Part shown: positions 393-47,494 of the stretch, in pieces
Numbering within the stretch: position 1 is the first letter of the stretch
Layout of the letters: each line of letters begins with the position of its first letter
Origin: Pseudoflavonifractor phocaeensis
GTDB lineage: Bacteria > Bacillota > Clostridia > Oscillospirales > Oscillospiraceae
DNA: 60,720 bases
Assembly (NCBI RefSeq): GCF_016901955.1
Contig: NZ_JACJLC010000012.1
Location: 1-60,720 of the forward strand
Reading direction: 5' to 3'
The notes under the pieces: model-generated
The model's database searches: none
What the model was told of the DNA's origin: nothing
What the model saw: the letters and a program-made list of their open reading frames with translations, nothing else
Program-made: the position numbers and the translations under genes

Positions 393-944
393 TCAGATCA
401 GGAATTTTATCATTTTGCTCTCGTCGGCATAGCTGCCGTCGTCGTACTTCAAGGCCCGGAGGTTTTTTCCGGTCTCCCGGAATCCAAACCGTTCATACAG
501 CCTTCTTGCCCGGTGATTCCCGTCCACAACCTCCAGCTCCACCTGCTCATAGCCCAGCCTTCCGGCAAGAAAGAGCGCGTACTCCAGCAGGGCCGAGCCG
601 ACGCCAAGACCCCACCATTCCTTCCGCAGGGCCACGGAAAAATCGCACCTGTGAGCGACGCGGCGCATACCACCCTTGGGCATGAGGGCGCAATTGCCCG
701 CCAGGACCCCGTCCACCTCCGCCAGCATCATAAACGCCTGGGGGCGGTCCTTCATTTCCTCCAAAAGCTGTTCTTCCTCCTGGAGCGTAAAGGTGATCTC
801 ATCCTCATACCGGAGCAGGAAGGGCGTCTCGGCGCTGACCGCCCGGAAACAGGCCAGCATGGCCGCCCCGTCCTTCCCGTGGGCGGAGCGCAAAATGCAG
901 GCCCGGCCATCCTTCAGTACCAGGGTCTTTTCTTCAAACGTCAT
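393..944 (-). CDS. GNAT family N-acetyltransferase
   Basis: This 183-residue protein covers one GNAT domain. The acetyl-CoA motif A appears as WWGLGVGSALLE (about residues 110-121), followed by VDGNHRARRLYERFGF, the usual motif B with the tyrosine before the C-terminal strands. The family transfers acetyl groups from acetyl-CoA to amines; the substrate cannot be told from sequence. It lies 21 bases after lgt, probably as the last gene of the transcript rodA/M16/lgt, and ends at a clear terminator. A GAGGA site precedes the ATG. Confidence 0.85.
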   Translation of the reverse strand: MTFEEKTLVLKDGRACILRSAHGKDGAAMLACFRAVSAETPFLLRYEDEITFTLQEEEQLLEEMKDRPQAFMMLAEVDGVLAGNCALMPKGGMRRVAHRCDFSVALRKEWWGLGVGSALLEYALFLAGRLGYEQVELEVVDGNHRARRLYERFGFRETGKNLRALKYDDGSYADESKMIKFLI

Positions 945-965
945 TTTTCTGTCCTCTGCTGTGAG

Positions 966-2036
966 TTATTTTTTCTTCTCCTCCAGCACCAGCACCTCTT
1001 TCAGGTCGGACCGGCTCTTCAGCATGTCGATCATCTCCGCTTTCTCCTCCGGGTCGGCTCCCTGAGGGAGAGCGTACTCCTCGGTGCGGGCGAAATCCCG
1101 GGCCAGGCGTTTTTTCTGCTTCTCCAGCCAGACGCCCCCCTGCCCCTCAGGGTAGACCAGGGCCACCGTCCGGCGGTTGCGGCGCATCTGATTCACCCAC
1201 AGCCGTTCCGGGTCGTGCTTGCGGAAGGCCAGCAGATAGATCAGCAGGCAGATAGCGATGAGGGCGGTGACAAAACCGAATACCTGAGATACCCGGATGG
1301 GGGTATTGAAAAAGTACAGGCTATCGGAGCGCAGGCCCTCGATAAAGCCACGGCCCATCCCGTACCAGGCAAAGTAGCTCAAAAAGATCTGTCCGTCAAA
1401 TTTCCGCCATTTCCTGGCCACCAGGATCAGCAGGCACAGGCCCAGCAGGTTCCACAGGGATTCGTACAGGAAGGTGGGATGGACCTCCGCATACTGCCGC
1501 ACTCCGTCCACATACTGGTAGACCCCCATCCGCCAGGGCAGATCGGTGGGGCCTCCATAGGCCTCAATGTTGACGAAGTTGCCCCACCGACCCACCATCT
1601 GGCCGATAAGCATCCCGAAGGAGCCCAGGTCGGCAAAGGCCAAAAACTTGATCTTGCGCACCTTGCAGAACACCAGCAGGGTGAGCACCGCGGCGATGAC
1701 CCCGCCGTAGATGGCCAGACCGCCGTCCCAGATGCGCACCATGGCCCCAAAATCCAGGGAGCCGTCGGCCCGCCGGTAGAGGTCCAGGTAGAAGATAATG
1801 TAGTAGAGCCGGGCCCCGATGATGGACAGGGGCACGGCGAAGAAGAGCATGTCGATGATCTCGTCCTGGCGGATGCCGAACTGGGGGGCCTTGCGGGAGC
1901 AGTACACCACCGCCAGCAGGAAGCCGGCGGCGATGATGACTCCGTACCAATATACCGGCCAGCTGCCCAGCCGGAAGGCCACCCGGTTCAGCTCCAGCTC
2001 CAGGCCGAGGCCGGGAAAGGTGACGGTCCCCGTCAT
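966..2036 (-). CDS. lgt: Prolipoprotein diacylglyceryl transferase with a long charged C-terminal tail
   Basis: Lgt moves diacylglycerol from phosphatidylglycerol to the lipobox cysteine of prolipoproteins at the cytoplasmic membrane. The protein has several membrane segments, the Lgt signature GRWGNFVNIEAYGG, and HPTFLYESLWN. The start chosen is the ATG at 2036, which overlaps the stop of the upstream peptidase gene as ATGA and has a GGGAGGG site; a longer frame to 2093 would run into that gene. At 356 residues it is longer than a usual Lgt (about 260-290). The extra part is a hydrophilic tail of roughly 90 residues rich in K, R and E, with no domain I recognise. Confidence 0.93.
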   Translation of the reverse strand: MTGTVTFPGLGLELELNRVAFRLGSWPVYWYGVIIAAGFLLAVVYCSRKAPQFGIRQDEIIDMLFFAVPLSIIGARLYYIIFYLDLYRRADGSLDFGAMVRIWDGGLAIYGGVIAAVLTLLVFCKVRKIKFLAFADLGSFGMLIGQMVGRWGNFVNIEAYGGPTDLPWRMGVYQYVDGVRQYAEVHPTFLYESLWNLLGLCLLILVARKWRKFDGQIFLSYFAWYGMGRGFIEGLRSDSLYFFNTPIRVSQVFGFVTALIAICLLIYLLAFRKHDPERLWVNQMRRNRRTVALVYPEGQGGVWLEKQKKRLARDFARTEEYALPQGADPEEKAEMIDMLKSRSDLKEVLVLEEKKK

Positions 2037-3313
2037 ACGGATCCCTCCCCCGGCCGCACCACGGCCAGGCCGCACCGTTCCGGCGTCACCCACCGGCGGA
2101 GCAGGTCTTCCACGCGGGCCTGGGTGATGCTGTCGAACACCTCAGGGAAGCGGAGGAATTCCGCCCCGGCGAAGTGGCTCTGGGCCATGTTGATGCACAG
2201 ATACTCAAAGGAGTTGAGCCCCCGGACCTTTGCCCCGTACATGCCCTTTTTCAGCCGGGAGAAGAGGGCGGGGTCAATGCCCTCCCGGGCCAGCCGGGCC
2301 CCCTCCTCCAGCACCGCGTCCCGCACGGCGGCGGGGTCCCTGCTCTCCCCGCCCGCCGCCATCAGAGCGCAGCCGGGATAGACCTCAAAGCCGTAGCCAA
2401 AATTCTTGTTGATGAGCCCCTGACTGTACAGCCTGGCGTACAGGGGACTGGAGCTGCCCAGCAGGGCCTCGCAGGCCAGCTCCCCTGCCAGCTCCTGGGC
2501 CATCCAGGCCTCCCCCCGCTGGGCGGGGTCGCACTTGAAGCCCAGCTGGAAAATTGGGGTGGACACCGCCATGGTCAGCTCCTTCTCCCCCTTGGCGGCC
2601 CGTGGCTCCTCCTCCCCGCCGTAGTCCCGGTCGATGTGGCCCAGGGACTGGACGGGCAGGATCTCCTTGGCCACGGCGCACACCCGCTCCGGGTCCACGT
2701 CCCCCGCCACGGTGAGCACCATGTTGGAGGGGTTGTAAAAAGCCTTGTGACAGGAGTAGAGGGTGCCGGCGGTGATGTGGGAGATGGACTCCTGGGTGCC
2801 GGCGATGGGCACCCGGATGGGATGGTGGTCGTACAGGCACTCCATCAGGGCATAGAACACCTGATTCTCCGGGTCGTCCTCCACCATGCGGATCTCCTGA
2901 CCAATGATGCCCTGCTCCTTGTCCACGCTCTCTTGGGTGAACCAGGGCACCGACACGAAGGAGAGAAGGATGCGCAGGTTGTCAAAGAACTTCTCGGTGC
3001 TCTCAAAGTAATAGCCGGTGATGGCGGAGCTGGTGAAGGCGTTGGGAGAAGCCCCGTTGGCAGCCAGGTCCTGGAGGGCGTTGCCCTCCTTGGTGTCGAA
3101 CATCTTGTGCTCCAGGAAGTGGGCCACCCCGGCCGGGGTATTCTTCCACCGGCCCTCCTGGAAAAAGCGCATGTCCATGCCCCCGTAGTTGGTGGCGAAA
3201 AAGGCGTAGCTCTTCTGAAAATCCCGGCGGCGGTCCACATAGATATGCAGGCCGTTTTCCAGGATCTCGTGGAACACGGTCTCCCCCAGCCGGGGATACT
3301 GCTTGCTTACCAT
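2033..3313 (-). CDS. M16 family zinc peptidase (YmfH-like), active-type subunit
   Basis: This 426-residue M16 metallopeptidase has the inverted zinc motif HFLEH (in GVAHFLEHKMF) in its N-terminal half, with the downstream glutamate expected in the following helix. The C-terminal half has the usual inactive repeat. It starts 4 bases after the stop of a second M16-family gene, and its stop overlaps lgt. In Firmicutes such YmfF/YmfH pairs form a two-chain peptidase with one zinc site. The natural substrate is unknown; some relatives act on secreted or leader peptides. Confidence 0.88.
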   Translation of the reverse strand: MVSKQYPRLGETVFHEILENGLHIYVDRRRDFQKSYAFFATNYGGMDMRFFQEGRWKNTPAGVAHFLEHKMFDTKEGNALQDLAANGASPNAFTSSAITGYYFESTEKFFDNLRILLSFVSVPWFTQESVDKEQGIIGQEIRMVEDDPENQVFYALMECLYDHHPIRVPIAGTQESISHITAGTLYSCHKAFYNPSNMVLTVAGDVDPERVCAVAKEILPVQSLGHIDRDYGGEEEPRAAKGEKELTMAVSTPIFQLGFKCDPAQRGEAWMAQELAGELACEALLGSSSPLYARLYSQGLINKNFGYGFEVYPGCALMAAGGESRDPAAVRDAVLEEGARLAREGIDPALFSRLKKGMYGAKVRGLNSFEYLCINMAQSHFAGAEFLRFPEVFDSITQARVEDLLRRWVTPERCGLAVVRPGEGSV

Positions 3314-3317
3314 AGGC

Positions 3318-4592
3318 TCAATCCCTGCCTTTCAGGAAATACACGGTGTCCAGCGTCAGGTCCTGGGCGGCCTGGATCACCTGCTGCCGGGTGACGGCCT
3401 CCACCCGCTCCACCATCTGGTCGGGACCGGCGGACAGACCGGCGGCGCTCTGACCAAGCCAGTAGTCCTCCAGGTGGCCCTGGGAATCCAGGGTAGTGCG
3501 CAGGGTGCTCACCACCGAGCGGCGGGCCCACTCCAGCTCGTCGTCGGAGAATTCCCCGGTCTGACAGCGGTAGAGCTGGGAGAGGATCTCGGCTTCCGCC
3601 TGGCCTACCTTGTCGAATTCCACACCGGAGGCTACCAGCATCACGTCCTTATATTTCATCAGCCCGGAGCTGGCGTAGTAGCACAGGCTCAGCTTCTCCC
3701 GCACGTTCATGAACAGCTTGGAGGTGGTGGTTCCGCCGTAGATGGCGTTGGCCAGCATGAGAGCGGGATAACCCTCGTCCCAGGCGTCGCAATGGGTGCG
3801 GAAGCCCATGGACAGCTTGCCCTGGGTCACGTCCAGGGCCTCCTCCACCCGGCGTGGAGGCTTGGGGGCGGTTCCCTTGGCCGGCCGGGCCAGGTCCATC
3901 CGGGTTCCGTCCCGGGGCAGACCGGCCAGCAACGGGGCAAAGGCGGCCTCCACCCGCTCCGGCTCCGCCGAGCCGCAGTAGTACAGCTCCACTCGGGCCA
4001 GCGTGAGCAGGCTCTGATAGGCTGTCCACAAGCTCTGAGGGGTGATGGCCTCCACGGCGGTCAGGCTGCCCAGCTTATCCACCCCGAAGGGCTCCCCTGC
4101 GCACATCTCCTCCACCACCCGCAGTTGGGCATACTGCCGCTTGTCGTTGACCTGGGCCTTGATGCGGTCGGTCAGGTTGGCCTTCTCCTGGCGGGTGTAG
4201 TCGGGGCAGAAGGCCCCGTCCTGAGTGTACGGCTGGAGCACCAGCTCGGCCATCAGGGCGGCGGCGGGCTCCAGCACCTTCTCCCCCTCCAGGGCATAGG
4301 CGTCGTCCAAAAAGCTGCCCATGAAGCCCACGCACTGAGTCTCCCCCTTTTTACGGATCATAGGCTCCAGGGAGCCGCCGTACAGCTCGTCCAGAGCGGC
4401 GGAGATGGACTCCAGATCGGGGTGCCGCAGGGAACCCCGGCGAAGCACCATGGGCGTCAGGGCGTGGAGGGCGGCCCGTTCATCCTTCAGGGGTGTGAGG
4501 AATTGTACGCCCAGCGTACAGGATTTGAATTTTTTCGTCTGCACCGCGGTGAGCCAGACGCCAGACTGCAACTGCGTCCTTGTGACCTTCAT
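3318..4592 (-). CDS. M16 peptidase-like partner protein lacking the zinc motif (YmfF-like)
   Basis: This 424-residue protein has the M16 fold pattern, but at the position of HxxEH it reads HALTPMVLRRG, so the glutamate and second histidine are missing. Later motifs such as GGTTTSKLF and NVREKLSLCYYA match the C-terminal repeat of M16B proteins. The likely role is a non-catalytic subunit that pairs with the active M16 protein encoded 4 bases downstream. The start at 4592 has an AAAGGA site about 13 bases upstream, which is a long spacing, so the start is slightly uncertain. Confidence 0.85.
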   Translation of the reverse strand: MKVTRTQLQSGVWLTAVQTKKFKSCTLGVQFLTPLKDERAALHALTPMVLRRGSLRHPDLESISAALDELYGGSLEPMIRKKGETQCVGFMGSFLDDAYALEGEKVLEPAAALMAELVLQPYTQDGAFCPDYTRQEKANLTDRIKAQVNDKRQYAQLRVVEEMCAGEPFGVDKLGSLTAVEAITPQSLWTAYQSLLTLARVELYYCGSAEPERVEAAFAPLLAGLPRDGTRMDLARPAKGTAPKPPRRVEEALDVTQGKLSMGFRTHCDAWDEGYPALMLANAIYGGTTTSKLFMNVREKLSLCYYASSGLMKYKDVMLVASGVEFDKVGQAEAEILSQLYRCQTGEFSDDELEWARRSVVSTLRTTLDSQGHLEDYWLGQSAAGLSAGPDQMVERVEAVTRQQVIQAAQDLTLDTVYFLKGRD

Positions 4593-4664
4593 AGGCAGCG
4601 ATCCGTCCTTTCTTGGTTACAACATAGCCTGCCACAATGGGCAAAGGGTATTCATCAAATTTGA

Positions 4665-5855
4665 CTAGAGCTGACTGCGGTCCCGTAGCCAGCTGGGCAG
4701 GGAGCGCATCTTGATACTGGACACCAGGCCCATGGCGGCGTACATGGTGATAATAGAGGAGCCGCCGTAGCTGACGAAGGGGAGGGTGAGACCCACCACC
4801 GGGAAGATATACAGGCACATGCCCACATTGACACCCACCTGGGCGATGAGCATTCCGGCATATCCCATGGCGATGAAGGCGCTCTGGGGGGAGCAGGCCC
4901 GGCGGGACACCCAGATACACCGCAGGATGATGGCGGTGAGGATAGCCAGCAGCAGCACACAGCCCACCAGGCCGAACTCCTCCCCGCACACGGCGAAGAT
5001 CTCGTCAGTCTCCCGGGCGGGCAGGCTGGACTCGCTGGTGCTCTGGGTCTGGATGCCCTGGAGGTAGCCCATGCCGGTAAGGCCGCCGCTGCCGATGGCC
5101 AGGATGCTGCGGGTCTGCTGCCACCCCCGGCCCAGAGTCTGCTCGGTGATCGTGTCCTGATTGCCGGTGAGATGGTCAATGACCACGGTGAACCGCTTCA
5201 TATAGTACATATCCTTCACATGGGGCCAGATCAGCACCAGTCCAACGGCGCACACTACGATGGCCAGCAGGAACCACCGCTTTTTCACGCCCCCGGCCCA
5301 GGCCATGATGACGAAAATGAGCAGATAGGTCAGGCCCATGCCGAAGTCGCCCGAGGTCACCGCCACCACCCCGAACATGAACAGAGTATGCCCGGCGATC
5401 TGGAACACAGAAGTGGGCCGGCTGATCCCGCGCTCCTGCAAGCGGCTGATCTGTAGGGCCAGCAGCAGCACGAAGGTGAGCTTTGCCAGCTCGGCGGGCT
5501 GCAAATTGACGGGAAAGCCGGGAATGTGGAGCCAGCTGCGGTTTCCGTTGACCTCCACCCCCAGGGGGGTGCGCACCAGGGCGTTGATGACCAGGTTGAA
5601 CACCAGCAGCCACTTCCAGAATTTATCCACGAACAGCTCGATGTCCACCGAGGACATGAGCATATAGATCACAACGCCCATGAGGATGGCTACCGTCTGC
5701 ACGATCATGCAGCGGGCGGCATCCCCCGCGCCCAGATAGCGGGTGGCGCTGAAAATGAGCACCAGGCCGAAGCCGCTGGCCATCAGGCAGAGGGTCAGCA
5801 GCAGCCGGTCTCCCTGTTCAAAAAAGGCCCGCATGGAGTCTTTGATCCAGGACAA
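4665..5855 (-). CDS. rodA: SEDS-family peptidoglycan glycosyltransferase, RodA type
   Basis: SEDS proteins polymerise lipid II into glycan strands with a class B PBP. This 396-residue protein has about ten membrane segments and the SEDS landmarks GNRSWLHIPGFPVNLQPAE, TSGDFGMGLTYLLIF and YGGSSIITMYAAMGL. No PBP or FtsZ-cluster gene is adjacent. RodA is preferred over FtsW or SpoVE from overall pattern and from the lack of division genes nearby, but a sporulation paralogue is possible. Translation starts at TTG (5855) behind a strong AAGGAGGTG site. Confidence 0.88.
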   Translation of the reverse strand: MSWIKDSMRAFFEQGDRLLLTLCLMASGFGLVLIFSATRYLGAGDAARCMIVQTVAILMGVVIYMLMSSVDIELFVDKFWKWLLVFNLVINALVRTPLGVEVNGNRSWLHIPGFPVNLQPAELAKLTFVLLLALQISRLQERGISRPTSVFQIAGHTLFMFGVVAVTSGDFGMGLTYLLIFVIMAWAGGVKKRWFLLAIVVCAVGLVLIWPHVKDMYYMKRFTVVIDHLTGNQDTITEQTLGRGWQQTRSILAIGSGGLTGMGYLQGIQTQSTSESSLPARETDEIFAVCGEEFGLVGCVLLLAILTAIILRCIWVSRRACSPQSAFIAMGYAGMLIAQVGVNVGMCLYIFPVVGLTLPFVSYGGSSIITMYAAMGLVSSIKMRSLPSWLRDRSQL

Positions 5856-5906
5856 CCGCCCACCTCCTTTTCATTTCTGCCCGGAGATCCGGACATGTGT
5901 CAAATT

Positions 5907-6147: not shown

Positions 6148-6576
6148 ATGGAAATTATAACCAATTCCTCGGCCGAGACCGAGGCTGTCGGGGCGGCGCT
6201 GGCGGAAGGGCTGGAGCCTGGGGCGGTGATCGCCTTTACCGGCGACCTGGGAGCGGGCAAGACCGCCTTTACCCGGGGGCTGGCCCGGGGCTTGGGGGTG
6301 GAGGAGCGGATCACCAGCCCCACCTTTACCATTGTCAATGAGTACGATGGGGGGCGGCTGCCCCTGTTCCACTTTGATATGTACCGCCTGGCCTCGGCGG
6401 AGGAGCTCTTCGACATCGGCTGGGAGGACTACCTGGCCCGGGGGGGCGTGTGTGCTGTGGAGTGGAGCGAAAATATCCAAGAGGCCCTGGAGGAAGGAAC
6501 CATCCGGGTAGATATCCGCCGGGGGGACCACGACGACCAGAGGATCATCACCATTACGGGAGGGGTACAGCCATGA
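6148..6576 (+). CDS. tsaE: tRNA threonylcarbamoyladenosine synthesis ATPase TsaE
   Basis: TsaE is the P-loop ATPase that works with TsaB and TsaD to install t6A at position 37 of ANN-decoding tRNAs. The Walker A motif GDLGAGKT is at residues 32-39, followed by [11 protein letters not shown] and FDMYRL, both typical of the family. The 142-residue start at 6148 is chosen because an AGAGGTG site stands before it; an upstream in-frame ATG at 6085 would add a tail lacking family similarity. Its stop overlaps tsaB as ATGA. Confidence 0.94.
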
Positions 6577-7283
6577 AGATACTTGCCCTGGAGTCCTCGG
6601 CGGTAGCCTGTTCGGCGGCCCTGTGCGAGGACGAGAAGCTTATCGCCCAGTCCTATCAGAACAACGGCCTCACCCACTCGGTGACCCTCATGCCCATGGC
6701 CACCTCCCTGCTGGCCAACTGTGGGGTGGGCCTGGAGGAGGTGGACGTCATCGCCGTGGCGGCGGGACCGGGCTCCTTCACCGGCCTGCGTATCGGGGTG
6801 GCCGCCGCCAAGGGCCTGGCCTGGACGGGGAATAAGCCTTGCGCCCCCTGCTCCACTCTGGAATCCATGGCCTGGAGCCTGGCCCACACCGGATTGGAGA
6901 TCTGTGCCGTTATGGACGCCCGCCGCCAGCAGGTGTATAACGCCCGCTTTTCCAGCGACGGGAATACCATTGCCCGCCTCACCCCAGACCGGGCCATCTC
7001 CCTGGCCCAGCTGGGGGAGGAATTAAAAATCTGCGGAAAACCGCAATTGCTGGTTGGAGACGGCGGGGTTTTATGCTATACTACCCTCAAAGAGCTGGGG
7101 CTGGACGTCCGCCTGGCGCCCCCCCACCTGCAGTTTCAGAGCGCCTGGGGCGTTGCCCGGTGCGGTCTGGAGCTGGCTCGGCAGGGCCTGCTGACCGACG
7201 GGGCGGGCCTGGCACCCAACTACCATCGCCTCTCCCAGGCTGAACGGGAGCGGCTGGCAAAAGAACAAAGCAAAGGGGAATAG
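6573..7283 (+). CDS. tsaB: tRNA threonylcarbamoyladenosine synthesis protein TsaB
   Basis: This 236-residue protein of the ASKHA (actin-like) fold acts as a non-catalytic partner of TsaD. The start ILALESS and the conserved [15 protein letters not shown] segment (about residues 66-80) identify it. It overlaps tsaE by four bases. In many Firmicutes rimI and tsaD follow tsaB; here upp follows after 4 bases and neither rimI nor tsaD is in the window. A promoter-like TATACT exists inside the gene but there is no reason to give it weight. Confidence 0.93.
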
Positions 7284-7287
7284 CGCC

Positions 7288-7923
7288 ATGGAAATGGAAA
7301 AAGTACACATTCTGGACCACCCGCTCCTGCAGCACAAGCTGTCCATCCTCCGGGATGAGAACACCGGCGTCAAGGACTTCCGTCAGGTGGTCTCCGAGAT
7401 CGCCACCCTCATGTGCTATGAGGCTACCCGGGACCTGCCCATGGAGGAAGTGGAAATCAAAACCCCCATCTGCACCGGAAAGTTCAAGACCATTGCCGGC
7501 AAGAAGCTGGCCATCGTACCCGTGCTGCGGGCCGGTCTGGGCATGGTGGACGGCATCCTGACCCTGATCCCCTCCGCCAAGGTGGGCCACATCGGCCTGT
7601 ACCGGGACCCCGACACCCTGGAACCGGTGGAGTACTACTGCAAGATGCCCACCGATATCGCCGAGCGTGAGGTCATCATCCTGGATCCCATGCTGGCCAC
7701 CGGCGGCTCCGCCTCCGCCGCCATCCAGTTCATCAAGAACTATGAGGTCAAGCACATCAAGCTGATGAACATCATCGCCGCTCCCGAGGGCATTGAGCGG
7801 GTCCATCATGACCACCCTGACGTGGACATCTACTGCGCCGCCCTGGACGAGAAGCTCAACGACCACGGCTATATCGTCCCCGGTCTGGGGGACGCCGGCG
7901 ACCGGATCTTCGGCACCAAGTAA
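7288..7923 (+). CDS. upp: Uracil phosphoribosyltransferase
   Basis: Upp salvages uracil: uracil + PRPP gives UMP + PPi. The 211-residue protein has [11 protein letters not shown] (substrate region), the PRPP loop [11 protein letters not shown] and the C-terminal [13 protein letters not shown] that binds uracil. The start ATG at 7288 follows an AAAGGGGA site overlapping the end of tsaB; an ATG two codons later is also possible. It is the last gene of the tsaE-tsaB-upp transcript and is followed by a strong terminator. Confidence 0.96.
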
Positions 7924-7931
7924 AAACGGCT

Positions 7932-7974
7932 GTAAAAAAATCCTCTTCCCCCCACGGGAAGAGGATTTTTTTAC
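7932..7974. terminator. Bidirectional intrinsic terminator between upp and recD2
   Basis: A 10-bp GC stem (7941-7950 with 7956-7965) is flanked by seven A on the left and seven T on the right, so the hairpin has a U-tract in either direction. It can end upp transcription on the plus strand and recD2 transcription on the minus strand after the REP cluster. Confidence 0.92.
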
Positions 7975-7981
7975 GGCTTGC

Positions 7982-8096
7982 GTAGGAGCGGCCTGTGGCC
8001 GCCCGGCGGAACGGGTCCCGCCCGCACGGATAAGACCGTATCGTCTGTGTAGGGGCGGGTCCCAGACCCGCCCGGCGTATCGTTTCCCGCCCCTAC
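7982..8096. repeat. Cluster of REP-like palindromes behind recD2
   Basis: The stretch holds a diverged unit starting GTAGGAGCGGCC (7982-8005), a unit with a perfect GGCGGGTC/GACCCGCC stem (8049-8074), and an inverted end CCCGCCCCTAC at 8086-8096. All share the form GTAGGGGC, variable stem, GCCCG. This is the same family as the 24-base element found twice inside the RAYT gene at 14913-15413. The inverted end contains the recD2 stop codon. Confidence 0.75.
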
Positions 8097-10300
8097 TCCT
8101 TCATCTGGGCCAGCCGCCAGCGCAGGCCGGAATACCGCCGCTGCTGGCGGTCGTTGGCGGTCATGCGGGCCACTACCTCATCGTCTCCCACCAGGATGAG
8201 CAGCTCCCGGGCCCGGGTGATGGCGGTATACAGCACTCCCCGGGTGAGCAGCATGGGTACTCCGTCGCTCACCGAAAGGATCACTGCCCGGTACTCGCTG
8301 CCCTGGGCCTTGTGGACGGTGATGGCATAGGCGGGCTCCAGTTCTACCAGCATCTCCGGGGTGTACTCCACCACCCGGCCCTCAAAATCCACGGTGACGG
8401 TCTGTTCCCGATTGTCCACCGAGATGATCTGGCCGATGTCCCCGTTGAACATGCCCAAGCCGCTGTCAGCCCCGTCCCGCCAAAGCACGTCGTAGTTGTT
8501 GCGCACCTGCATGACCCGGTCTCCCTGGCGAAACACGTACTCTCCGAACCGCCGCTCCGGCTTGTCCGGTCCCGGCGGGTTCACCGCCTCCTGGATGGCA
8601 CGGTTCAGACTGGCAGTGCCCGCCACCCGCTTGCGGGTGGGAGAGAGCACCTGGATCTGGTCGGCGGGAATGCCCATATTGTCGGGCAGCCGGGTCTGGA
8701 TCAGCTCGATGATGGTCTCCGCCGCCCTGGCCGGGTCCTTCCGCCGGAGGAAAAAGAAGTCCTTCTTGTTCGCCCGCAGGTCGGGCAGGATGCCCTGGTT
8801 CACCTGGTGGGCGTTGCGGACGATGGCGCTCTCCGCCGCCTGGCGGAAGATCTCCGTCAGACGCACCATAGGGATGGCCCCGGAGCGGATCAGGTCGGAA
8901 AACAGGTTGCCCGGTCCCACGCTGGGCAGCTGGTCCGGGTCCCCCACCAGGATGAGCCGGCAGCTGTCCCGCAGGGCGGACAACAGCCCCTGCATAAGCA
9001 CGATGTCCACCATGGAGGTCTCGTCCACGATGACGGCGTCCGCCTTCAGGGGGTCGTCCTCCCCGTGGGAGAACACCAGCTTACCGGACCGAGGGTCATA
9101 TTTCGTCTCCAGCAGCCGGTGGATGGTGTACCCCTCCGCCCCGCACAGCTCCCCCAGCCGCTTGGCCGCCCGGCCGGTGGGGGCCGCCAGAGCGGTTTCC
9201 AGTCCCAGCTGGTCAAAGAGGGCCAGCACCCCCCGGAGGGATGTGGTCTTGCCGGTACCCGGGCCGCCGGTGAGGAGCATCACCTGGCTGGTGGCCGCCA
9301 GGGCCACCGCCTCCCGCTGCTGGGGTGCGTATACGATGCCCTGCTCGGCCTGGATGCGGTCGATAAGCGCATCCAGTTGGTGGGGAGCCACCAGCTCCCC
9401 CCTGGCCATCTCGGTAAGCCGCCAGGCCACATACTGCTCGGCCTCGTACAGGTCGTGGAGGTAGATCCCCTCCTCCCCCGCCACCTGTTCCTGGATCACC
9501 TCGCCCCGCTCCAGCAGGGCCTCCAGGGCGTCCTCCAGCTCGTCGGTCTCCAGACCGATGAGCTGGGCGGTGGCGGGGAGCAGCTTCCGCCGGGGCAGGA
9601 AGGCATGACCGTTATCCAGATTGTAGGACAGCTCGTGGAGGAGAGCGGCCACCATCCGCTGGGGGTCGTCCCCCTCCATGCCCATGGACAGGGCCAGGGC
9701 GTCGGCGGTGGAGAACTCCACCCCCAGCTCTCCGTCCACCAGCAGGTAGGGATTGCCCCGGATGGTCTCCAGGGCCCGGTCCCCGAACCGGCGGTAGAGG
9801 GGCATGGCCAGCTGGAGAGGCACCTCATGCTCTCCCAGAAAGGCCAGCAGCCGCCGCATCCCCATCTGGGTGCGGAAATTCTCTCCGATAGTCAGGGCCT
9901 TTTTCCGGGTGATGCCCTTGATGCGGGTAAGCTGCTCCGGGTGCTCCTCCAGAATGGTGAGGGCCTCCTCCCCGAACTCCTCCACCATCCGCCGGGCGGT
10001 GGCCGCCCCGATGCCCCGGACGGCCCCGGAGGAGAGGTAGTCGAAAATGGCCTTGGCGCCGGCGGGCAGCCGCCGCTCCACCGCTTCGGCCTTGAACTGC
10101 TCTCCGTAGGAGGCGTGACGGCCCCAGGTCCCCTGGACGGAGATGCCCTCTCCGGGGGCCACCCCGGGCATGCAGCCCACCACCGTCACCAAAGCCCCGT
10201 CTCCCACGTCAAGACGGAGCACCGTGTAGCCGTTCTCCTCGTTCTGGTAGATCACGGCTGACACGGTGCCCTGGATGTAAGTCTGTTCCGTTTCCTGCAT
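8093..10300 (-). CDS. recD2: RecD2-type ATP-dependent 5'-3' DNA helicase
   Basis: RecD2 is a superfamily 1B helicase of bacteria without RecBC. The 735-residue protein has an N-terminal OB/HhH region (RGIGAATARRMVEEFG and IKGITRKKAL, about residues 95-135), Walker A GGPGTGKT at 345-352, the DET of Walker B at 426-428, GDPDQLPSVGPGN and the C-terminal AYAITVHKAQGSEY motif VI. The ATG at 10300 has a GAAGGAGGGG site. The stop codon TAG lies inside a REP end (8093-8095). It is the last gene of a minus-strand group with the two small genes upstream. Confidence 0.94.
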   Translation of the reverse strand: MQETEQTYIQGTVSAVIYQNEENGYTVLRLDVGDGALVTVVGCMPGVAPGEGISVQGTWGRHASYGEQFKAEAVERRLPAGAKAIFDYLSSGAVRGIGAATARRMVEEFGEEALTILEEHPEQLTRIKGITRKKALTIGENFRTQMGMRRLLAFLGEHEVPLQLAMPLYRRFGDRALETIRGNPYLLVDGELGVEFSTADALALSMGMEGDDPQRMVAALLHELSYNLDNGHAFLPRRKLLPATAQLIGLETDELEDALEALLERGEVIQEQVAGEEGIYLHDLYEAEQYVAWRLTEMARGELVAPHQLDALIDRIQAEQGIVYAPQQREAVALAATSQVMLLTGGPGTGKTTSLRGVLALFDQLGLETALAAPTGRAAKRLGELCGAEGYTIHRLLETKYDPRSGKLVFSHGEDDPLKADAVIVDETSMVDIVLMQGLLSALRDSCRLILVGDPDQLPSVGPGNLFSDLIRSGAIPMVRLTEIFRQAAESAIVRNAHQVNQGILPDLRANKKDFFFLRRKDPARAAETIIELIQTRLPDNMGIPADQIQVLSPTRKRVAGTASLNRAIQEAVNPPGPDKPERRFGEYVFRQGDRVMQVRNNYDVLWRDGADSGLGMFNGDIGQIISVDNREQTVTVDFEGRVVEYTPEMLVELEPAYAITVHKAQGSEYRAVILSVSDGVPMLLTRGVLYTAITRARELLILVGDDEVVARMTANDRQQRRYSGLRWRLAQMKE

Positions 10301-10363
10301 GGCCGCCCCTCCTTCGATTCAGGGATATCATACCATCTGGAACCGGTTTTGTCGAATGGTTTT

Positions 10364-10711
10364 CTAATGTGCCTGGGTCAGATAGGCCCCCAGCTGCCCT
10401 GCTGGGCAGAGCACCACGTCGGTGGCGTCGGCCAGCAGGGCGGCGGCCACCGCCTTCCCCGCCGGGTCCAGTCCTCCGTCGGCGATGACGATGGTACCCT
10501 GGAGCAGGCCGTTTTTCCGCAGCCAAAGCAGACCCTTCACCGTGTGCTCCAGCCCATCCCCTGTTCCCGACGCGGGGGTGACCGTATACACCGGACCGTC
10601 CCCCAGGCCGGGGGTCAGCAGCCTGCCCAGCAGCAGCCACCCCAGGCCCAGCAGACCCAGGGCGGACAGAAGGGCCAGGATCCCCTGTAACAGCTCATTC
10701 AAGCCCCTCAC
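10364..10711 (-). CDS. Small membrane-anchored protein of unknown function
   Basis: The 115-residue product has one N-terminal hydrophobic segment (about residues 5-30) followed by a soluble domain of about 80 residues with VYTVTPASGTGDGLEHTVKG and IVIADGGLDPAGKAV. The alternating strands and helices look like a small Rossmann-like fold, and the phrase IVIADGGLD recalls nucleotide- or sugar-handling folds, but I do not recognise the family. Translation probably starts at GTG 10711 behind GGATGGAG. It lies between a putative exporter gene (37 bases upstream) and recD2 (63 bases downstream). Confidence 0.7.
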   Translation of the reverse strand: MRGLNELLQGILALLSALGLLGLGWLLLGRLLTPGLGDGPVYTVTPASGTGDGLEHTVKGLLWLRKNGLLQGTIVIADGGLDPAGKAVAAALLADATDVVLCPAGQLGAYLTQAH

Positions 10712-41583: not shown

Positions 41584-42306
41584 TCACGGTTCCTCCTTGA
41601 CGATGGTGCCGATTTTCTCCCCCATGACCACCCGCAGGATATTCTCGGGGTCCTTGAGGGCAAACAGGATCACCGGGATCTTGTTGTCCATGGACAGGGA
41701 TGTGGCGGTGGTGTCCATCACCTGCAGGTGCTGGGCCAGAACGTCGTCATAGGTGATGGAGTCGTACTTCACCGCATTGGGATCCTTACGGGGATCAGCG
41801 GAGTAAACGCCGTCGATGTTCTTAGCCAGCAGGATGGCGTCCGCGTCGATTTCAGCGGCCCGGAGCACGGCAGCAGTGTCGGTGGAGAAGAAAGGATTGC
41901 CGGTGCCGCAGCCGAAGATGACCACTCTCCCCTTCTCCATGTGGCGGATGGCCTTGGAGCGGATGTAGGGCTCGGCGATGGCCCGCATCTCAATGGCGGT
42001 CTGCACCCGCACGTCCACGCCCTTCTGCTCCAGCATATCGGCCACGGCAAGGGCGTTGATGGTGGTGGCCAGCATGCCCATGTGGTCGGCCCGAGTGCGC
42101 TCCATCCGGTCACCGCCGTCCTTCAGGCCCCGCCAGAAGTTGCCGCCGCCTACCACGATGCCAACCTGGACCCCGGCGGCCACACACTTCTTGATCACGT
42201 CGCACACGCTGCCAATGACGTCAAAATCCAGGCCGCGGCTGGCCTCGCCGGCCAGCGCCTCGCCGCTTACTTTCAGAAGGATCCGCTTGAACTGCGGTTC
42301 ACTCAT
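41584..42306 (-). CDS. pyrH: UMP kinase
   Basis: PyrH phosphorylates UMP to UDP, linking the pyr genes to nucleotide pools. The 240-residue protein of the amino-acid-kinase fold starts [15 protein letters not shown], with [28 protein letters not shown] and [12 protein letters not shown]. An AAAAAGGAG site precedes the ATG. In many Firmicutes rpsB-tsf stand upstream; here the gap upstream (113 bases) leads to an unrelated gene pair. A weak promoter could lie in that gap (TTGAAA, TATGCA, 17 bases), not annotated separately. Confidence 0.96.
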
Positions 42307-42419: not shown

Positions 42420-44450
42420 TTAGAGCGGGCGCTGACCGGCACATTCTCTACGGCCGGCGACAAAACGGGACAAATAGCTTCTGTTATTCTCCCATGTTTC
42501 ACCCTTGCACAGCTCCATCAGGGTGCCCTTACCCCACCCGTCTTTGTCCACCAGCCTGCAGGTGGGTGGATCGGAGGTCAGCGCCTTCGTGATGCCGTCC
42601 CTGACCCGATTGAGCCGGTATAACAACGCGCGTATGTATTTTGGGTCTTTGATCATTTCCAGCTCGCCCTCGATGGTATCCTCACTGATAGTCATCAGAT
42701 GTTCATAAAAATCCCGGTCTACCACTGGAAAGATATAGTTTCCGTCCTTATCCATACAGCTGCGCATATGAATTTGCGTTCCATGCGTTATGTATTTTGT
42801 GCCGAAGGCCATATCGTTGTCGATCCCCGTGATCCCACGGATCCGGACTTTTTTTCCTTCCTTGGCGTAATCAAAGAACACATTGTTCAAATGCCGGTCA
42901 AACTGCCCGCAAATATTGTCCAGCAGTTGCAGGTTCATCAGCTGCCGCTGGAATTCGCCGGTGTACTCATCATGGCCGGGCGGTGCCGCTTTGTGCAGAT
43001 GGGTATAATCCAGGCCCTTTGCCTTATTCATCACAAATCCGGAACGGCTGGCGCCGTCCTGAACCAGCTTGACCTGCTGGCTGTGCACCACCTGTTCCTT
43101 CATACCTAAAATGGATGCCATCCGGACAGTGGCCACATTGCGCTCGCTCAATCCCTGGCCTTCCTCAAGCCCGAGATTAGCGCCGATGCCTGCGGCCATC
43201 CTCCGGCGCAGCACAGCCTTCATGATCTTGGCCGCCGTCTCATTGGAGAGATAGGAGGCGTCCACCTTCGCCATAGCTCCGCTTTCATTCAGCAGCTTCA
43301 ACAGATCCGCATTATTCAGGTCAAGCTTTCCCTGCCCATCCCCCGCGTTGCGCAACAGCTCCAGTACTCGGTCCATCTGGCTGATCTGATCTCCATGGGC
43401 ATAACAGAAACGGTCCACGCTCTGGCGCTCCTCTTCGGTGGGGAGGCCGCCCTTTATCTCTTCCTTGGCGTCCCGTATGATCTCTTTTTCTCCCTGGATA
43501 AATTCGTCCTCCTTGAAAAACTGAGTATCCTCCCCCGTCCCGATGGTGGTCACCGCGCTCATGGCCTGACCCATACGTCCAGTCTTCTGACCGGTGATGT
43601 CGATTACCTGGTCCTGTCCCGCACGCTTGAGCAATGCTCCCCAGGTCACCTGTTCTCCATCATAAAAGGCTTGCCAGGCTACATCGGAGAAATTTTTTCT
43701 GGTAACGTTATCTATAAAGGCTGACCTTACCAAAAATATTTTCAGTCTCTCGGCTGTATCCTTAGGGATGGTGTCCGCCGCGCCCATCTTATCCAGTTCA
43801 CAATATGCGGCGTTGCTATTTTGATTTATGTTGCGGGTGCAATAGTTGAGCATGTGCAGAAGGATTTCAAAACTCGCCTGATCCCCGGGGATAGTCCGGG
43901 TAATATGGGCGGTCATGGTTTGAAGCATGGCATGGGTGAGCTGGAGATGATGGATCATCATCTTCTTTTTGTCCTGATCGATGGTCAGCTGGTTGATCTG
44001 CTCACAAATATCAGGGATGTTGGAGATGGCAGATAATCTCTCGGCCTGGTATTCCTCCGCTGAAACGTCCTTCTTCTGCCGCTCCTGGACCCGCTGCCGC
44101 TGGGCCAGGAGCCGCTGCCGGTTTTCCTCCCGCATCTCCTCCGCCCGCTTCTCCCGATGCTTTTTGTTGGAGATCTGGGCCAGCTCCATCTTCTGGGCCT
44201 CGGTCAGTTCCACCGGCGGGGCAGTCGGATCCACCGCCGGAGGAATCCCGCCGTTGAGCTGGGTGCGGGTCTGCACGGTGGCCTGGACAGGATCTGCCGC
44301 CACCTGCTGCTGGTCCTGCTGCACCCCGGCGGTCTGCTGCTGTTGGACGGCCAGCTGCTGCTGGATGGGATCGGCAAACTGCTGGGGGGCTAAGTCCGGC
44401 TGCACCGGAGCTTCGGCCTTCCGGTGCTTTCCTAACATGATGGGCGCCAT
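42420..44450 (-). CDS. Large protein with putative PI3/PI4K- or actin-fragmin-kinase-like catalytic region
   Basis: I do not know a named family for this 676-residue protein. Residues 20-60 are Q-rich and low-complexity, 85-130 a charged helix (coiled-coil-like), and the middle is helical. Residues about 455-560 carry an atypical kinase pattern: QVKLVQDG and FVMNKAKG (possible ATP-binding Lys at 476 or 478), then LLDNICGQFDRHLNN (D518, R519, H520, N523), then GITGIDNDMAFG (D544, D546). The DRHxxN plus D-N-D/G order is that of lipid-kinase-like and actin-fragmin-kinase folds. No signal peptide or membrane segment. By eye G+C is clearly lower than the flanks. A strong AAAGGAGG site precedes the ATG. 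Kinase activity is inference. Confidence 0.6.
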   Translation of the reverse strand: MAPIMLGKHRKAEAPVQPDLAPQQFADPIQQQLAVQQQQTAGVQQDQQQVAADPVQATVQTRTQLNGGIPPAVDPTAPPVELTEAQKMELAQISNKKHREKRAEEMREENRQRLLAQRQRVQERQKKDVSAEEYQAERLSAISNIPDICEQINQLTIDQDKKKMMIHHLQLTHAMLQTMTAHITRTIPGDQASFEILLHMLNYCTRNINQNSNAAYCELDKMGAADTIPKDTAERLKIFLVRSAFIDNVTRKNFSDVAWQAFYDGEQVTWGALLKRAGQDQVIDITGQKTGRMGQAMSAVTTIGTGEDTQFFKEDEFIQGEKEIIRDAKEEIKGGLPTEEERQSVDRFCYAHGDQISQMDRVLELLRNAGDGQGKLDLNNADLLKLLNESGAMAKVDASYLSNETAAKIMKAVLRRRMAAGIGANLGLEEGQGLSERNVATVRMASILGMKEQVVHSQQVKLVQDGASRSGFVMNKAKGLDYTHLHKAAPPGHDEYTGEFQRQLMNLQLLDNICGQFDRHLNNVFFDYAKEGKKVRIRGITGIDNDMAFGTKYITHGTQIHMRSCMDKDGNYIFPVVDRDFYEHLMTISEDTIEGELEMIKDPKYIRALLYRLNRVRDGITKALTSDPPTCRLVDKDGWGKGTLMELCKGETWENNRSYLSRFVAGRRECAGQRPL

Positions 44451-44487: not shown

Positions 44488-45306
44488 TCAACTGATGGGG
44501 AGCCGGTATCGGAATACGAAGGTTTTCTTTGCCTTGGGTAAAAAGGTGTCGCTGAGCCGGGAGGCAGATTCCGCGATGGTGCCGGTATAAAGCTCCGTAT
44601 CCGCCGGATACCGCTCCCTGGCCGCCCGCAGGCAGCAGACCAGCAGCCCGGGCAGGATGTAGCTCCACTCCTTTTCACACCACAGATAGGATACGCACAG
44701 ATGGGCCCCCGCCTCTATCAGCAGCATGGCCCGCAGGGCGCCGCCGTGGAAATAGAGTCGGCTCAGGTCCGAATCATAGCACTGGGCCACAGGCGCCGAA
44801 TAGGCGGGCATTCCCTGGGTCCGGAGCATCCGCAGCGCATCTTTTTTTTGCTGGGGATCTGCCTGGCCCAGGGGTGTCCCCACCGCCTGGCGCACATGTC
44901 TCTCCAGCCTGCTCAGCTCCACCTCCCCCAGGGTGGTGGTATAGAGACTGCCGATCCGCCGGAAGGGCGCGTTCAGGCTGATCATCAGGGAGGACATCTC
45001 CAGATTGCCGTCCATGGGGAAATCCGCCTCCAGCCAATTGGTGCCGGCGGCATGCCCGTTTGCCATCAAGGTGAGGAGCAGCATTCGCCCCAGCCCTTGC
45101 CGTCGGTAATCCGGGGCCACCCACAGCCACAGCAGGCGTGTGGCCAGTCCCCGAAGCTCCGCCGCCATCACCGCCTGAAGCACGCCGTTGTCGTCTTGCA
45201 GACCGAACACATCTGCCTGGCCGGTGCGGGCCTGCCAGTACACACTATTGGGAAACATCTCCCGAATGGGCTCCAGCTGGTTGGAGCGAACGGAACATAT
45301 GGTCAT
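44488..45306 (-). CDS. GNAT-type acetyltransferase, 272 residues, paired with the kinase-like gene
   Basis: The N-terminal half has a GNAT motif A, LWVAPDYRRQGLGRMLLLTLM (about residues 66-86), after the strand ATRLLWLW. The C-terminal half (residues about 120-272) resembles a second, degenerate GNAT-like part without a clear acetyl-CoA loop. ATG 45306 is fixed by AGGAG seven bases upstream; an ATG 15 bases earlier overlaps that site. The gene ends 37 bases before the kinase-like gene on the same strand, so the two are probably one transcript. Substrate unknown. Confidence 0.75.
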   Translation of the reverse strand: MTICSVRSNQLEPIREMFPNSVYWQARTGQADVFGLQDDNGVLQAVMAAELRGLATRLLWLWVAPDYRRQGLGRMLLLTLMANGHAAGTNWLEADFPMDGNLEMSSLMISLNAPFRRIGSLYTTTLGEVELSRLERHVRQAVGTPLGQADPQQKKDALRMLRTQGMPAYSAPVAQCYDSDLSRLYFHGGALRAMLLIEAGAHLCVSYLWCEKEWSYILPGLLVCCLRAARERYPADTELYTGTIAESASRLSDTFLPKAKKTFVFRYRLPIS

Positions 45307-45358
45307 ACCCATTCTCCTCATGTCGTAAACGCGAACGGGAGGTACAATAGAACGCTTC

Positions 45359-45535: not shown

Positions 45536-47494
45536 TTATTTGCCCTTCTTTTTTCCTGGACGGGCGTTCTTTTTGGGCTTTGCCACCGCCCAGCCAGCCT
45601 TTTTCACCGGCTTTGTCTTGCGGACAGGCTCCGCTGTGGGTTTTCTCCCTTTCCCCGGTCCGGTCTTGCCGGCTGGAGCCTTTGAGGTCGGGACCTTGCG
45701 GTGCTCTGGCCGGAGCAGGCACTCCTTGCCGTAGCCGATCAGATCCTCCCGGTGGGCCCGGTATAGGGCCTCCCGTACCAGGGGCCGCTTTTCCGGCCGC
45801 TTCCACTGCATCAGGGCCCGCTGCATAGCCTTTTCATGGGGGTCTCTGGGCACGTACACCGGCTCCATGGTACGGGGGTCGATGCCGGTATAGTACATGC
45901 AGGTGGACAGGGTACCGGGAGTGGGATAGAAATCCTGGACCTGCTCGGGCTGGCGGCCCGACTTATTCAGCCACTCCGCCAGGCGAACTGCGTCGTTGAG
46001 AGTGCAGCCCGGGTGAGAGGACATGAGATAAGGTACCAGATATTGCTCCTTGCCGTATTTCTGATTGAGCCGCTCATATTTCTGGCGGAATTTCTCGTAC
46101 ACCTCGATGTGGGGCTTACCCATGCAGTCCAGCACCGTGTTGACACAGTGCTCCGGGGCCACCTTCAGCTGGCCGGACACATGGTGCTTCACCAGCTCGG
46201 CGAAGAACTCCCCATTACCGTCCTTCAGCAGGAAGTCGAACCGGATGCCCGACCGAATGAACACCTTCTTCACCCCGGGCACCGCCCGGATCTTCCGCAG
46301 CAGCATCAGGTAGTCTGTGTGGTCGGCGTCCAGGTTGGGGCAGGCGGCGGGGGCCAGACAGGCCTTCCCCCGGCACAGTCCCGCCTTCATCTGCTTTTTG
46401 CAGGCGGGCCGGCGGAAGTTGGCGGTGGGCCCTCCCACGTCGTGGATATATCCTTTGAAGCCTGGGTGGTGGGTCAGGGCCTCCACCTCCCGGAGCACGC
46501 TCTCATGGCTGCGGGAGGAGATGATCCGCCCCTGGTGGAAGGCCAGAGAGCAGAAGTTGCAGGCCCCAAAACACCCCCGGTTGTGGGCTACCGAGAAGCG
46601 GACCTCCTCAATGGCAGGCACACCTCCCATGTCGTCGTACATGGGGTGGGGCTCCCGGACATAGGGCAGCTCAGCCACGTAATCCAGCTCTGCCGTGGTG
46701 AGAGGCATGGCGGGGGGATTGACGATAAGCATCCTGTCCCCATGGCGCTGGAGGATGGCCTTTCCCCGGATAGGGTCGTGCTCCTCATACTGGATCTGGT
46801 TGGCCACGGCGTACTGCCGCTTGTCCTCCCGCACCTGCTCAAAGGAGGGACACTCCACCTTGGGATAGGCGCAGACCGAGGGATCTCTTGCAATAAAGGC
46901 AGTTCCCTTTACATCTGTGATCTCCCCCACCGGGGTGCCGGAGGCCAGCCGGGCGGCAATCTCCCGGGTAGCGGTCTCCCCCATGCCGTACACCAGCAGG
47001 TCGGCCTGGCTGTCAAAGAGGACCGAACGGCGCACCTTGTCCTCCCAGTAGTCGTAGTGGGCAAACCGGCGGAGGGAGGCCTCCAGCCCGCCAATCACCA
47101 GTGGGATGTCCCCAAAAACCTCCCGGATCTTGTTGGCGTATACGATGGAGGCCCGATCGGGCCGCAGACCGGCCCGGTTGCCGGGGGAATAGGCGTCGTC
47201 GTGGCGGCGCTTTTTGGCCACGGTGTAGTGGGCCACCATGGAGTCCAGGTTGCCAGCGGACAGCATGACCCCCAGTCGGGGACGGCCCATGGCTGTAAAG
47301 GCCTCCGGCTTGCGCCAGTCTGGCTGAGCCAGAATGGTCACTCGGTAGCCCTCCGCCTCCAGCAGCCGGGAGATGATAGCGGTGCCGAAGGAGGGGTGAT
47401 CCACGTAGGCGTCGCCGGTGAGGATCAGGAAGTCGTACCAGTCCCAGCCCCGGTCCGCCATGTCCGCCTTGGAGACGGGCAAAAATGTATTCAT
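45536..47494 (-). CDS. YgiQ family radical SAM protein
   Basis: The 652-residue protein has the UPF0313/YgiQ layout: an N-terminal YDFLILTGDAYVDHPSFG, LGVMLSAGNLDSMVAHYT, GGLEASLRRFAHYDYW, then the radical SAM cysteines C308, C312 and C315 in NRGCFGACNFCSLAF. The tail (about 590-652) is basic and Lys/Pro-rich. The reaction is unknown; the family binds a [4Fe-4S] cluster and SAM. The gene follows the phosphatase/GNAT fusion by 12 bases with GAGGAAA upstream. Confidence 0.92.
   Translation of the reverse strand: MNTFLPVSKADMADRGWDWYDFLILTGDAYVDHPSFGTAIISRLLEAEGYRVTILAQPDWRKPEAFTAMGRPRLGVMLSAGNLDSMVAHYTVAKKRRHDDAYSPGNRAGLRPDRASIVYANKIREVFGDIPLVIGGLEASLRRFAHYDYWEDKVRRSVLFDSQADLLVYGMGETATREIAARLASGTPVGEITDVKGTAFIARDPSVCAYPKVECPSFEQVREDKRQYAVANQIQYEEHDPIRGKAILQRHGDRMLIVNPPAMPLTTAELDYVAELPYVREPHPMYDDMGGVPAIEEVRFSVAHNRGCFGACNFCSLAFHQGRIISSRSHESVLREVEALTHHPGFKGYIHDVGGPTANFRRPACKKQMKAGLCRGKACLAPAACPNLDADHTDYLMLLRKIRAVPGVKKVFIRSGIRFDFLLKDGNGEFFAELVKHHVSGQLKVAPEHCVNTVLDCMGKPHIEVYEKFRQKYERLNQKYGKEQYLVPYLMSSHPGCTLNDAVRLAEWLNKSGRQPEQVQDFYPTPGTLSTCMYYTGIDPRTMEPVYVPRDPHEKAMQRALMQWKRPEKRPLVREALYRAHREDLIGYGKECLLRPEHRKVPTSKAPAGKTGPGKGRKPTAEPVRKTKPVKKAGWAVAKPKKNARPGKKKGK

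Follow-up and report, generated by a model that had tools for sequence, protein, structure and literature searches.

What does a kinase-like protein with a glutamine-rich leader act upon, and by which route would it get there, when its gene lies among housekeeping genes? The question is raised by a 676-aa gene in the window analyzed here, a 60,720-nt stretch of Pseudoflavonifractor phocaeensis DNA (contig NZ_JACJLC010000012.1). A sequence-only reading had taken the product for a divergent kinase, of lipid-kinase or actin-fragmin-kinase likeness, which was possibly acquired and might act on host targets. Comparison across genomes leads us to a more specific answer, to which we assign a probability of roughly two in three: the gene would encode an atypical kinase effector delivered by an extracellular contractile injection system (eCIS) and paired with a GNAT-family protein serving many cargoes. 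After injection, its C-terminal half, predicted to be an atypical kinase domain that falls within the PI3/PI4-kinase-like superfamily, in the branch with FAM20, type II phosphatidylinositol 4-kinases (PI4K), HipA, and CtkA, would use ATP to phosphorylate a protein or lipid of the target cell, with ATP held by K313, a catalytic loop made of D518, H520, and N523, and the metal bound by D544. For loading, the AAA ATPase of the eCIS would recognize the glutamine-rich, polar N terminus as a signal, and the GNAT would more probably act on something common to many cargoes (leader, loading, or latency) than as an antidote to the kinase. The features on which this proposal draws are as follows.

42420..44450, minus strand: kinase-like gene (candidate cargo), 676 aa, ATG start, intact (ORF, i.e., open reading frame, and translation)
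44256..44450, minus strand: glutamine-rich leader, residues 1-65 (17 Q in the first 60 residues)
43611..44213, minus strand: N-terminal part, residues 80-280, without known domain (no Pfam match there)
43503..43520, minus strand: FFKEDE, residues 311-316, proposed N-lobe strand with the putative nucleotide-binding lysine K313 (alignment)
43014..43037, minus strand: FVMNKAKG, residues 472-479, proposed hinge strand (G479 invariant, K476/K478 variable)
42882..42899, minus strand: DRHLNN, residues 518-523, putative catalytic loop (23-row alignment)
42801..42827, minus strand: GIDNDMAFG, residues 542-550, putative metal motif (D544 aligned with the FAM20 LDN motif)
44488..45321, minus strand: GNAT-family partner gene, 277 aa, 37 bp upstream of the kinase gene (Pfam, profiles)

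Probable kinase assignment of the C-terminal half

The family-level search found relatives of the kinase in 12 of 400 genomes, nine at E ≤ 6e-8 including the own genome (G000), and a class-wide profile search was positive in 9 of 391 genomes, with the own genome, G622, G486, and G409 at E < 1e-26. Conservation was counted over 23 aligned relatives, excluding the weak family-search matches in G114, G261, and G387 (E 0.006 to 0.009) and the class-search matches in G459, G488, G506, G725, and G760 (E 1e-8 to 3e-6, ORFs of 305 to 368 aa). An E 0.57 match within the own genome is no kinase copy; it covers the N-terminal part only and falls in the region of a Q-rich protein on contig C241.

The motifs stand where the sequence-only reading had placed them (LLDNICGQFDRHLNN from residue 509, GIDNDMAFG from 542, and FVMNKAKG from 472), and 100,000 shuffles of the window kinase sequence never produced the pattern DRHxxN-x(10,30)-[IVL]DND. 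D511, D518, N523, and G479 are invariant in the 23 relatives, R519, H520, N545, and D546 are kept in 22, and D544 is kept in 21; the residues on which that reading hinged (D518, N523, and D544) are thus conserved, and at the level of sequence it withstands the check it had set itself. The lysines that it had nominated, K476 and K478, fared otherwise, as both vary freely. K313, in an FFK motif, appears to be the better candidate, its column holding 7 K, 3 R, 5 T, 1 A, and 7 gaps, with the alanine belonging to a misaligned row (L022) whose own FFK lies elsewhere in the sequence. The five proteins with threonine form a subgroup (L020, L021, L025) near which no GNAT of the partner family was found and whose genomes yielded no eCIS sheath.

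Searched alone against Pfam, the window kinase listed a single family, PF00454 (PI3_PI4_kinase; E 0.0057), with 17 bits against a gathering cut-off of 27.1 bits, which among the scanned relatives is exceeded only by one from Comamonas (27.7 bits). A 14-row family profile compared with PDB chains matched FAM20A (4e-5), Fam20C (8e-4), PI4K2B (1e-3), PI4K2A (0.04), and CtkA (0.06), and more weakly DNA-PKcs (0.37 to 0.40) and actin-fragmin kinase (1cja; 1.2). At E ≤ 10, 17 of the 19 distinct sequences belong to the PI3/PI4-kinase-like superfamily, six being DNA-PKcs constructs and another, chain 4kqa, what we take to be a worm FAM20-type protein; the remainder are a poxvirus H7 protein and a DNA polymerase III subunit. 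With a 23-row profile at E ≤ 1, the superfamily accounts for 16 of 18 (15 as before plus a glycosaminoglycan xylosylkinase, presumably FAM20B), and the other two are ATP synthase d subunits. Alignment to L076 by hhalign gave 98.5%. These matches, together with the conserved residues, support the assignment of the C-terminal half to a kinase domain of this superfamily.

FAM20 (FAM20C/FAM20A; PF06702) provides the best PDB profile matches, with catalytic loop, metal motif, and following helices aligned; in one scan PF06702 was listed below cut-off for 3 of 10 relatives, at E values between 3e-5 and 1.5e-3, and one L077 kinase gave 0.0024. However, the alignment extends only over the C-terminal part of the domain, and the bacterial proteins have polar leaders with no sign of a Golgi-type secretory nature. 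Type II PI4K and PF00454 have the DRHxxN loop and the D-containing metal motif in common with the window kinase, but its score falls below the cut-off and lipid specificity is not inferable from such a match. Actin-fragmin kinase, one of the likenesses named in the sequence-only reading, is not the nearest known relative, since FAM20 and type II PI4 kinases score better; it is unlisted at E ≤ 1 with the 23-row profile, and no such Pfam family was listed for the window kinase. CtkA of Helicobacter pylori (3akj) is a weakly matching bacterial kinase that differs in being shorter (325-residue chain) and tied to another secretion system; according to PMC5536186, a type IV secretion system is needed for it to act pro-inflammatorily on gastric epithelial cells.

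The best PDB match, FAM20A, is itself titled a pseudokinase, and threonine occupies the lysine position in five relatives, both of which would suit a protein that performs no phosphotransfer, either a pseudokinase or an accessory with a structural part in the injection system. With D518, H520, N523, and D544 intact in the window protein and kept in 21 to 23 of the 23 relatives, we hold this to be very improbable. Lysozyme matches in a single-protein PDB search (E 0.011 to 0.27) leave the kinase motifs untouched and were taken as chance. A defence-system reading was also discarded, no PADLOC model having matched the window kinase or the GNAT. Residues 635-679, in the kinase part of the L027 protein (7929-10436), weakly match the candidate defence model PDC-M03A (E 1.9e-4), and the kinase part of this protein matches the NCBIfam SCO1664 family model at 3.5e-4, far below cut-off.

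Links to a contractile injection system

Fusion provides a direct link between kinase and eCIS: four of the 23 kinase proteins carry an N-terminal eCIS_core domain, i.e., L019:6863-9196 (1e-20), L027 (6e-16), L024 on G178:C82 (7e-18), and L076 (4e-7). Effectors of this architecture are known already, often with an N-terminal DUF4157 and a C-terminal toxin domain, according to passages of PMC8213781. The four fusions are the point of likeness to them; the window protein differs in having a Q-rich leader and a GNAT neighbor instead of eCIS_core. Contig C238 of the own genome encodes Pvc16_N, a 585-aa sheath, a gp19 tube, gp25, Baseplate_J, Tail_P2_I, and an eCIS_core gene, along with a GNAT and two AAA ATPases with winged-helix domains (WHD), and is a Photorhabdus virulence cassette (PVC)-like eCIS locus. 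An eCIS-type sheath is encoded in 8 of 13 kinase-bearing genomes (nine of the family sample plus G400, G486, G622, and G409), and lies on the same contig as the kinase genes in G210, G486, and G622; the sheath-profile search was positive in 27 of 360 genomes of the family. In G210, two kinase genes are accompanied by a further eCIS_core gene, two AAA ATPases, a GNAT, and a gene that matches a PPPDE peptidase weakly and below cut-off. The guess that the enzyme might act on host targets gains strength from this context of fusions and an own-genome locus, which was missing from the sequence-only reading.

L076 was found by the kinase profile alone, on a contig stored as viral. At positions 802-5874 and 6369-8429 it holds at least two eCIS_core genes, one kinase-fused and one whose match to an OTU protease is weak and below cut-off, and it probably represents a cluster of eCIS cargo genes, not a virus. 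The first and last of six viral-contig scans gave this contig and the other four gave nothing. A phage origin is unsupported: phage records contained no match, and none of five proteins was assigned to a PHROG family.

Passages of PMC11495950 describe how payloads of Photorhabdus virulence cassettes are loaded by the AAA ATPase Pvc15 via a disordered signal peptide at their N terminus, and passages of PMC11297309 describe eCIS signals as hydrophilic, disordered, and without conserved sequence. The Q-rich leaders fit this description, although the window leader is no outlier in hydropathy, and the AAA/WHD ATPases of the own-genome locus add to the likeness; the difference is that the published passages on loading mention neither a glutamine-rich class nor a GNAT partner. 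The main text of neither PMC8213781 nor PMC11297309 contains "GNAT" or "acetyltransferase"; "kinase" concerns regulators in passages of the former and appears only in the reference list of the latter, and "kinase" and "acetyltransferase" have 0 occurrences in PMC12210884, on contractile injection systems in metagenomes. Literature searches, which covered few subscription papers or preprints, found no report of a glutamine-rich class in contractile injection systems, no related GNAT as judged by title, and, as judged by title or the start of the abstract, no such kinase cargo.

The GNAT partner and glutamine-rich leaders

The window GNAT exceeds the Pfam cut-offs of PF13508 (28.6 vs 27 bits) and PF00583 (24.0 vs 20.7 bits), each of which is matched by 11 of 12 members of its family at E ≤ 0.01. 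In pairwise comparison its match to the C241 GNAT reached 1e-6 and a weaker one, to the G182 GNAT, 3e-4; the C241 and C238 GNATs match each other at 3e-13, and an iterated profile unites it with GNATs adjacent to eCIS_core genes (G000 C238, G182, G290, and G178) and with one near the G210 cluster. Members of the same family adjoin kinase relatives in L018, L077, L078, L079, and L080. At E ≤ 1e-8, the 12-GNAT profile detected eight members of the family in the window genome, five of which (C237, C255, C221, C251, and C12) are outside the profile rows. All eight adjoin a same-strand partner, which is an eCIS_core gene in one case (C238) and a Q-rich-leader gene in seven; the seven have 11 to 22 Q in the first 60 residues, and three of them run off the contig end. 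Among 140 gene-like ORFs from the regions read in the own genome, partly chosen for GNAT presence and thus not a genome-wide count, at least 11 Q in the first 60 residues occur in seven, all GNAT neighbors, and the next highest has six. The Q-rich leader noticed in the sequence-only reading is real, its 17 Q comparing with a median of 2 in the 140 ORFs and being the highest count among 51 window ORFs. The Kyte-Doolittle sum of the first 50 residues is −35.1.

Partners of the GNATs are diverse. A Pfam scan of ten GNAT-associated or neighboring proteins from four genomes found domains in three and none in seven. A Q-rich-leader protein with an ADP-ribosyltransferase exoenzyme domain (PF03496, 5.6e-9) lies with a GNAT on C255 (L119, 3658-5718 and 5728-6804), and another, with a calpain-family protease domain (PF00648, 6.6e-14), lies beside a GNAT on C221 (L120, 3724-5988); they are candidates for a second and a third effector in the own genome, where the scan took in four Q-rich-leader proteins besides the window kinase. 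An Ntox11 domain was found in a GNAT-associated or neighboring protein of G210 (4.9e-31). The C241 protein (L084, 12712-15198; 829 aa, 22 Q in 60), also with a GNAT adjacent, has no Pfam domain at E ≤ 0.01. In G486 (L123-L127, L079, and L080), many GNATs stand beside large proteins (800 to >2000 aa) starting with MD, and eCIS-type AAA ATPases are encoded in L123.

The two-gene layout with its 37-bp gap would also suit an intracellular regulator or toxin-antitoxin-like pair, i.e., a HipA-like kinase and a GNAT that never leave the cell, and HipA belongs to the same fold superfamily as the PI3/PI4-kinase-like kinases. Nonetheless, the domain-family scans of the window protein listed neither a HipA nor a toxin-antitoxin family, and the GNAT family also accompanies ADP-ribosyltransferase, protease, and eCIS_core proteins, which argues against a kinase-specific antidote; we regard such a pair as improbable. 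Since one GNAT family pairs with cargoes of varied activity, it is more likely to be involved in their loading, maturation, or latency than to be an antidote.

Co-occurrence was assessed in 400 genomes of the same family (GNAT threshold, E ≤ 1e-10). eCIS_core was found in 37, the GNAT in 26, and both in 20 (Fisher p = 1e-18); kinase genomes numbered nine, of which five had the GNAT (p = 8e-5) and five had eCIS_core (p = 5e-4); all these counts are lower bounds, as limited candidates were scored per genome. In 13 of the 15 genomes that had both GNAT and eCIS_core but contributed no profile row, coordinates place the GNAT within 1.5 kb of the eCIS_core gene. G486 has 16 GNAT matches at E ≤ 1e-8, yet also an eCIS sheath and eCIS-type AAA genes; its eCIS_core search gave no match, which is not proof of absence, though the same model was positive in 6 of 10 genomes in another search. 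GNAT and cargo can thus apparently travel with an eCIS without eCIS_core.

Several observations weigh against delivery of the window kinase by an eCIS, or against its being an active kinase. The protein has no eCIS_core listed by Pfam, a local eCIS_core profile had no match anywhere in the window, and the gene lies on a different contig from the eCIS locus. Five of the 13 kinase-bearing genomes (G156, G380, G323, G001, and G409) lack a detected eCIS-type sheath, with four of these assemblies 83 to 93% complete and with shorter sheath-like matches of ∼360 aa in G323 and G001. Seven of 18 kinase loci, two of them on short contigs, have no adjacent GNAT, eCIS_core, or other delivery link. The co-occurrence p-values ignore shared ancestry, the GNAT profile was built in part from eCIS-adjacent genes, and 6 of the 26 GNAT-positive genomes are without eCIS_core (the GNAT match is partial in G072, G148, G229, and G340 and full-length in G064 and G253). 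The hydropathy of the leader is by itself ordinary, at least 5 of the 51 window ORFs being more hydrophilic over 50 residues. The threonines at the K313 position also count here. Two AlphaFold2 predictions (window protein with L018 and L076) had mean pLDDT (predicted local distance difference test) scores of 40.0 and 44.1, which mean no usable model, and Foldseek with the second returned 0 matches at E ≤ 0.001; we take both as uninformative about the fold. The kinase part of the sequence-only reading is supported by profile matches and catalytic residues and not by structure.

Some of these points would fit an effector of the same general kind that leaves by another route, a secretion or contact-dependent system, with the eCIS link reflecting co-carriage of cargo islands in the same lineages rather than loading. 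Besides the five genomes without a detected sheath and the orphan position of the kinase in the window, a more distant Comamonas plasmid relative (32% identity over 24% of the query, annotated as phosphatidylinositol 4-kinase) has an annotated type III secretion chaperone two genes away. Set against this route are the direct eCIS_core-kinase fusions, the GNAT pairing common to kinase and eCIS_core genes, and the occurrence of eCIS-type sheath and kinase genes on one contig in three genomes, and we consider it unlikely.

If eCIS delivery is right, commensal-type Clostridia would inject kinases, ADP-ribosyltransferases, and proteases via phage-tail-like particles, the kinases forming a bacterial branch of the FAM20/PI4K-like group. 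Cargo could be found anywhere in a genome by its GNAT partner and leader type, a search rule for hidden effectors, and how unlinked cargo gets recognized would become a testable question. More tentatively, and with the odds against it, gut-type Clostridia may keep dispersed Q-leader eCIS cargoes, each with its own GNAT that modifies or chaperones the leader for AAA-ATPase loading of unlinked cargo, in an arsenal that includes a new class of kinase effector from the FAM20/PI4K superfamily. Such a GNAT/Q-leader scheme would amount to a new loading code for contractile injection systems.

Genomic setting and history of the site

The housekeeping surroundings described in the sequence-only reading were confirmed, with genes that we take by eye to be pyrH and frr on one side and a radical-SAM gene on the other, beyond the GNAT gene.

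41584..42306, minus strand: pyrH, downstream housekeeping neighbor (name presumed by eye)
45536..47494, minus strand: radical-SAM (YgiQ-type) gene, upstream neighbor (Radical_SAM_N/DUF3362)

L018, from an uncultured Eubacteriales genome, holds a full-length kinase relative (70% identical in the best segment) in the same gene order, with identities to the window of 94% for YgiQ, 99% for pyrH, 81% for the GNAT, and 68% for the kinase. The GNAT-kinase pair has kept its position, and the kinase has changed rapidly in the meantime, which is how an effector would be expected to evolve. In five same-genus genomes, the 4.4 to 4.8 kb upstream of pyrH contain no YgiQ-type gene, GNAT, or kinase; the genes there differ between some of the five, and none offers a clean empty site. 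The site upstream of pyrH is variable. The lower G+C content suspected earlier was also confirmed (55.3% for the kinase gene vs 61.9% for the window), and 1.4% of equally long window stretches are as low; unlike the kinase gene, the neighboring GNAT gene is at the window mean (62.2%). Acquisition of the kinase gene is plausible from these data. In a same-genus genome (L022, 2828-4744 and 6200-8446), a kinase relative lies ∼1.5 kb from a gene that, by eye, presumably resembles ribosome-protection tetracycline-resistance GTPases, a neighbor that suggests a mobile context for this relative.
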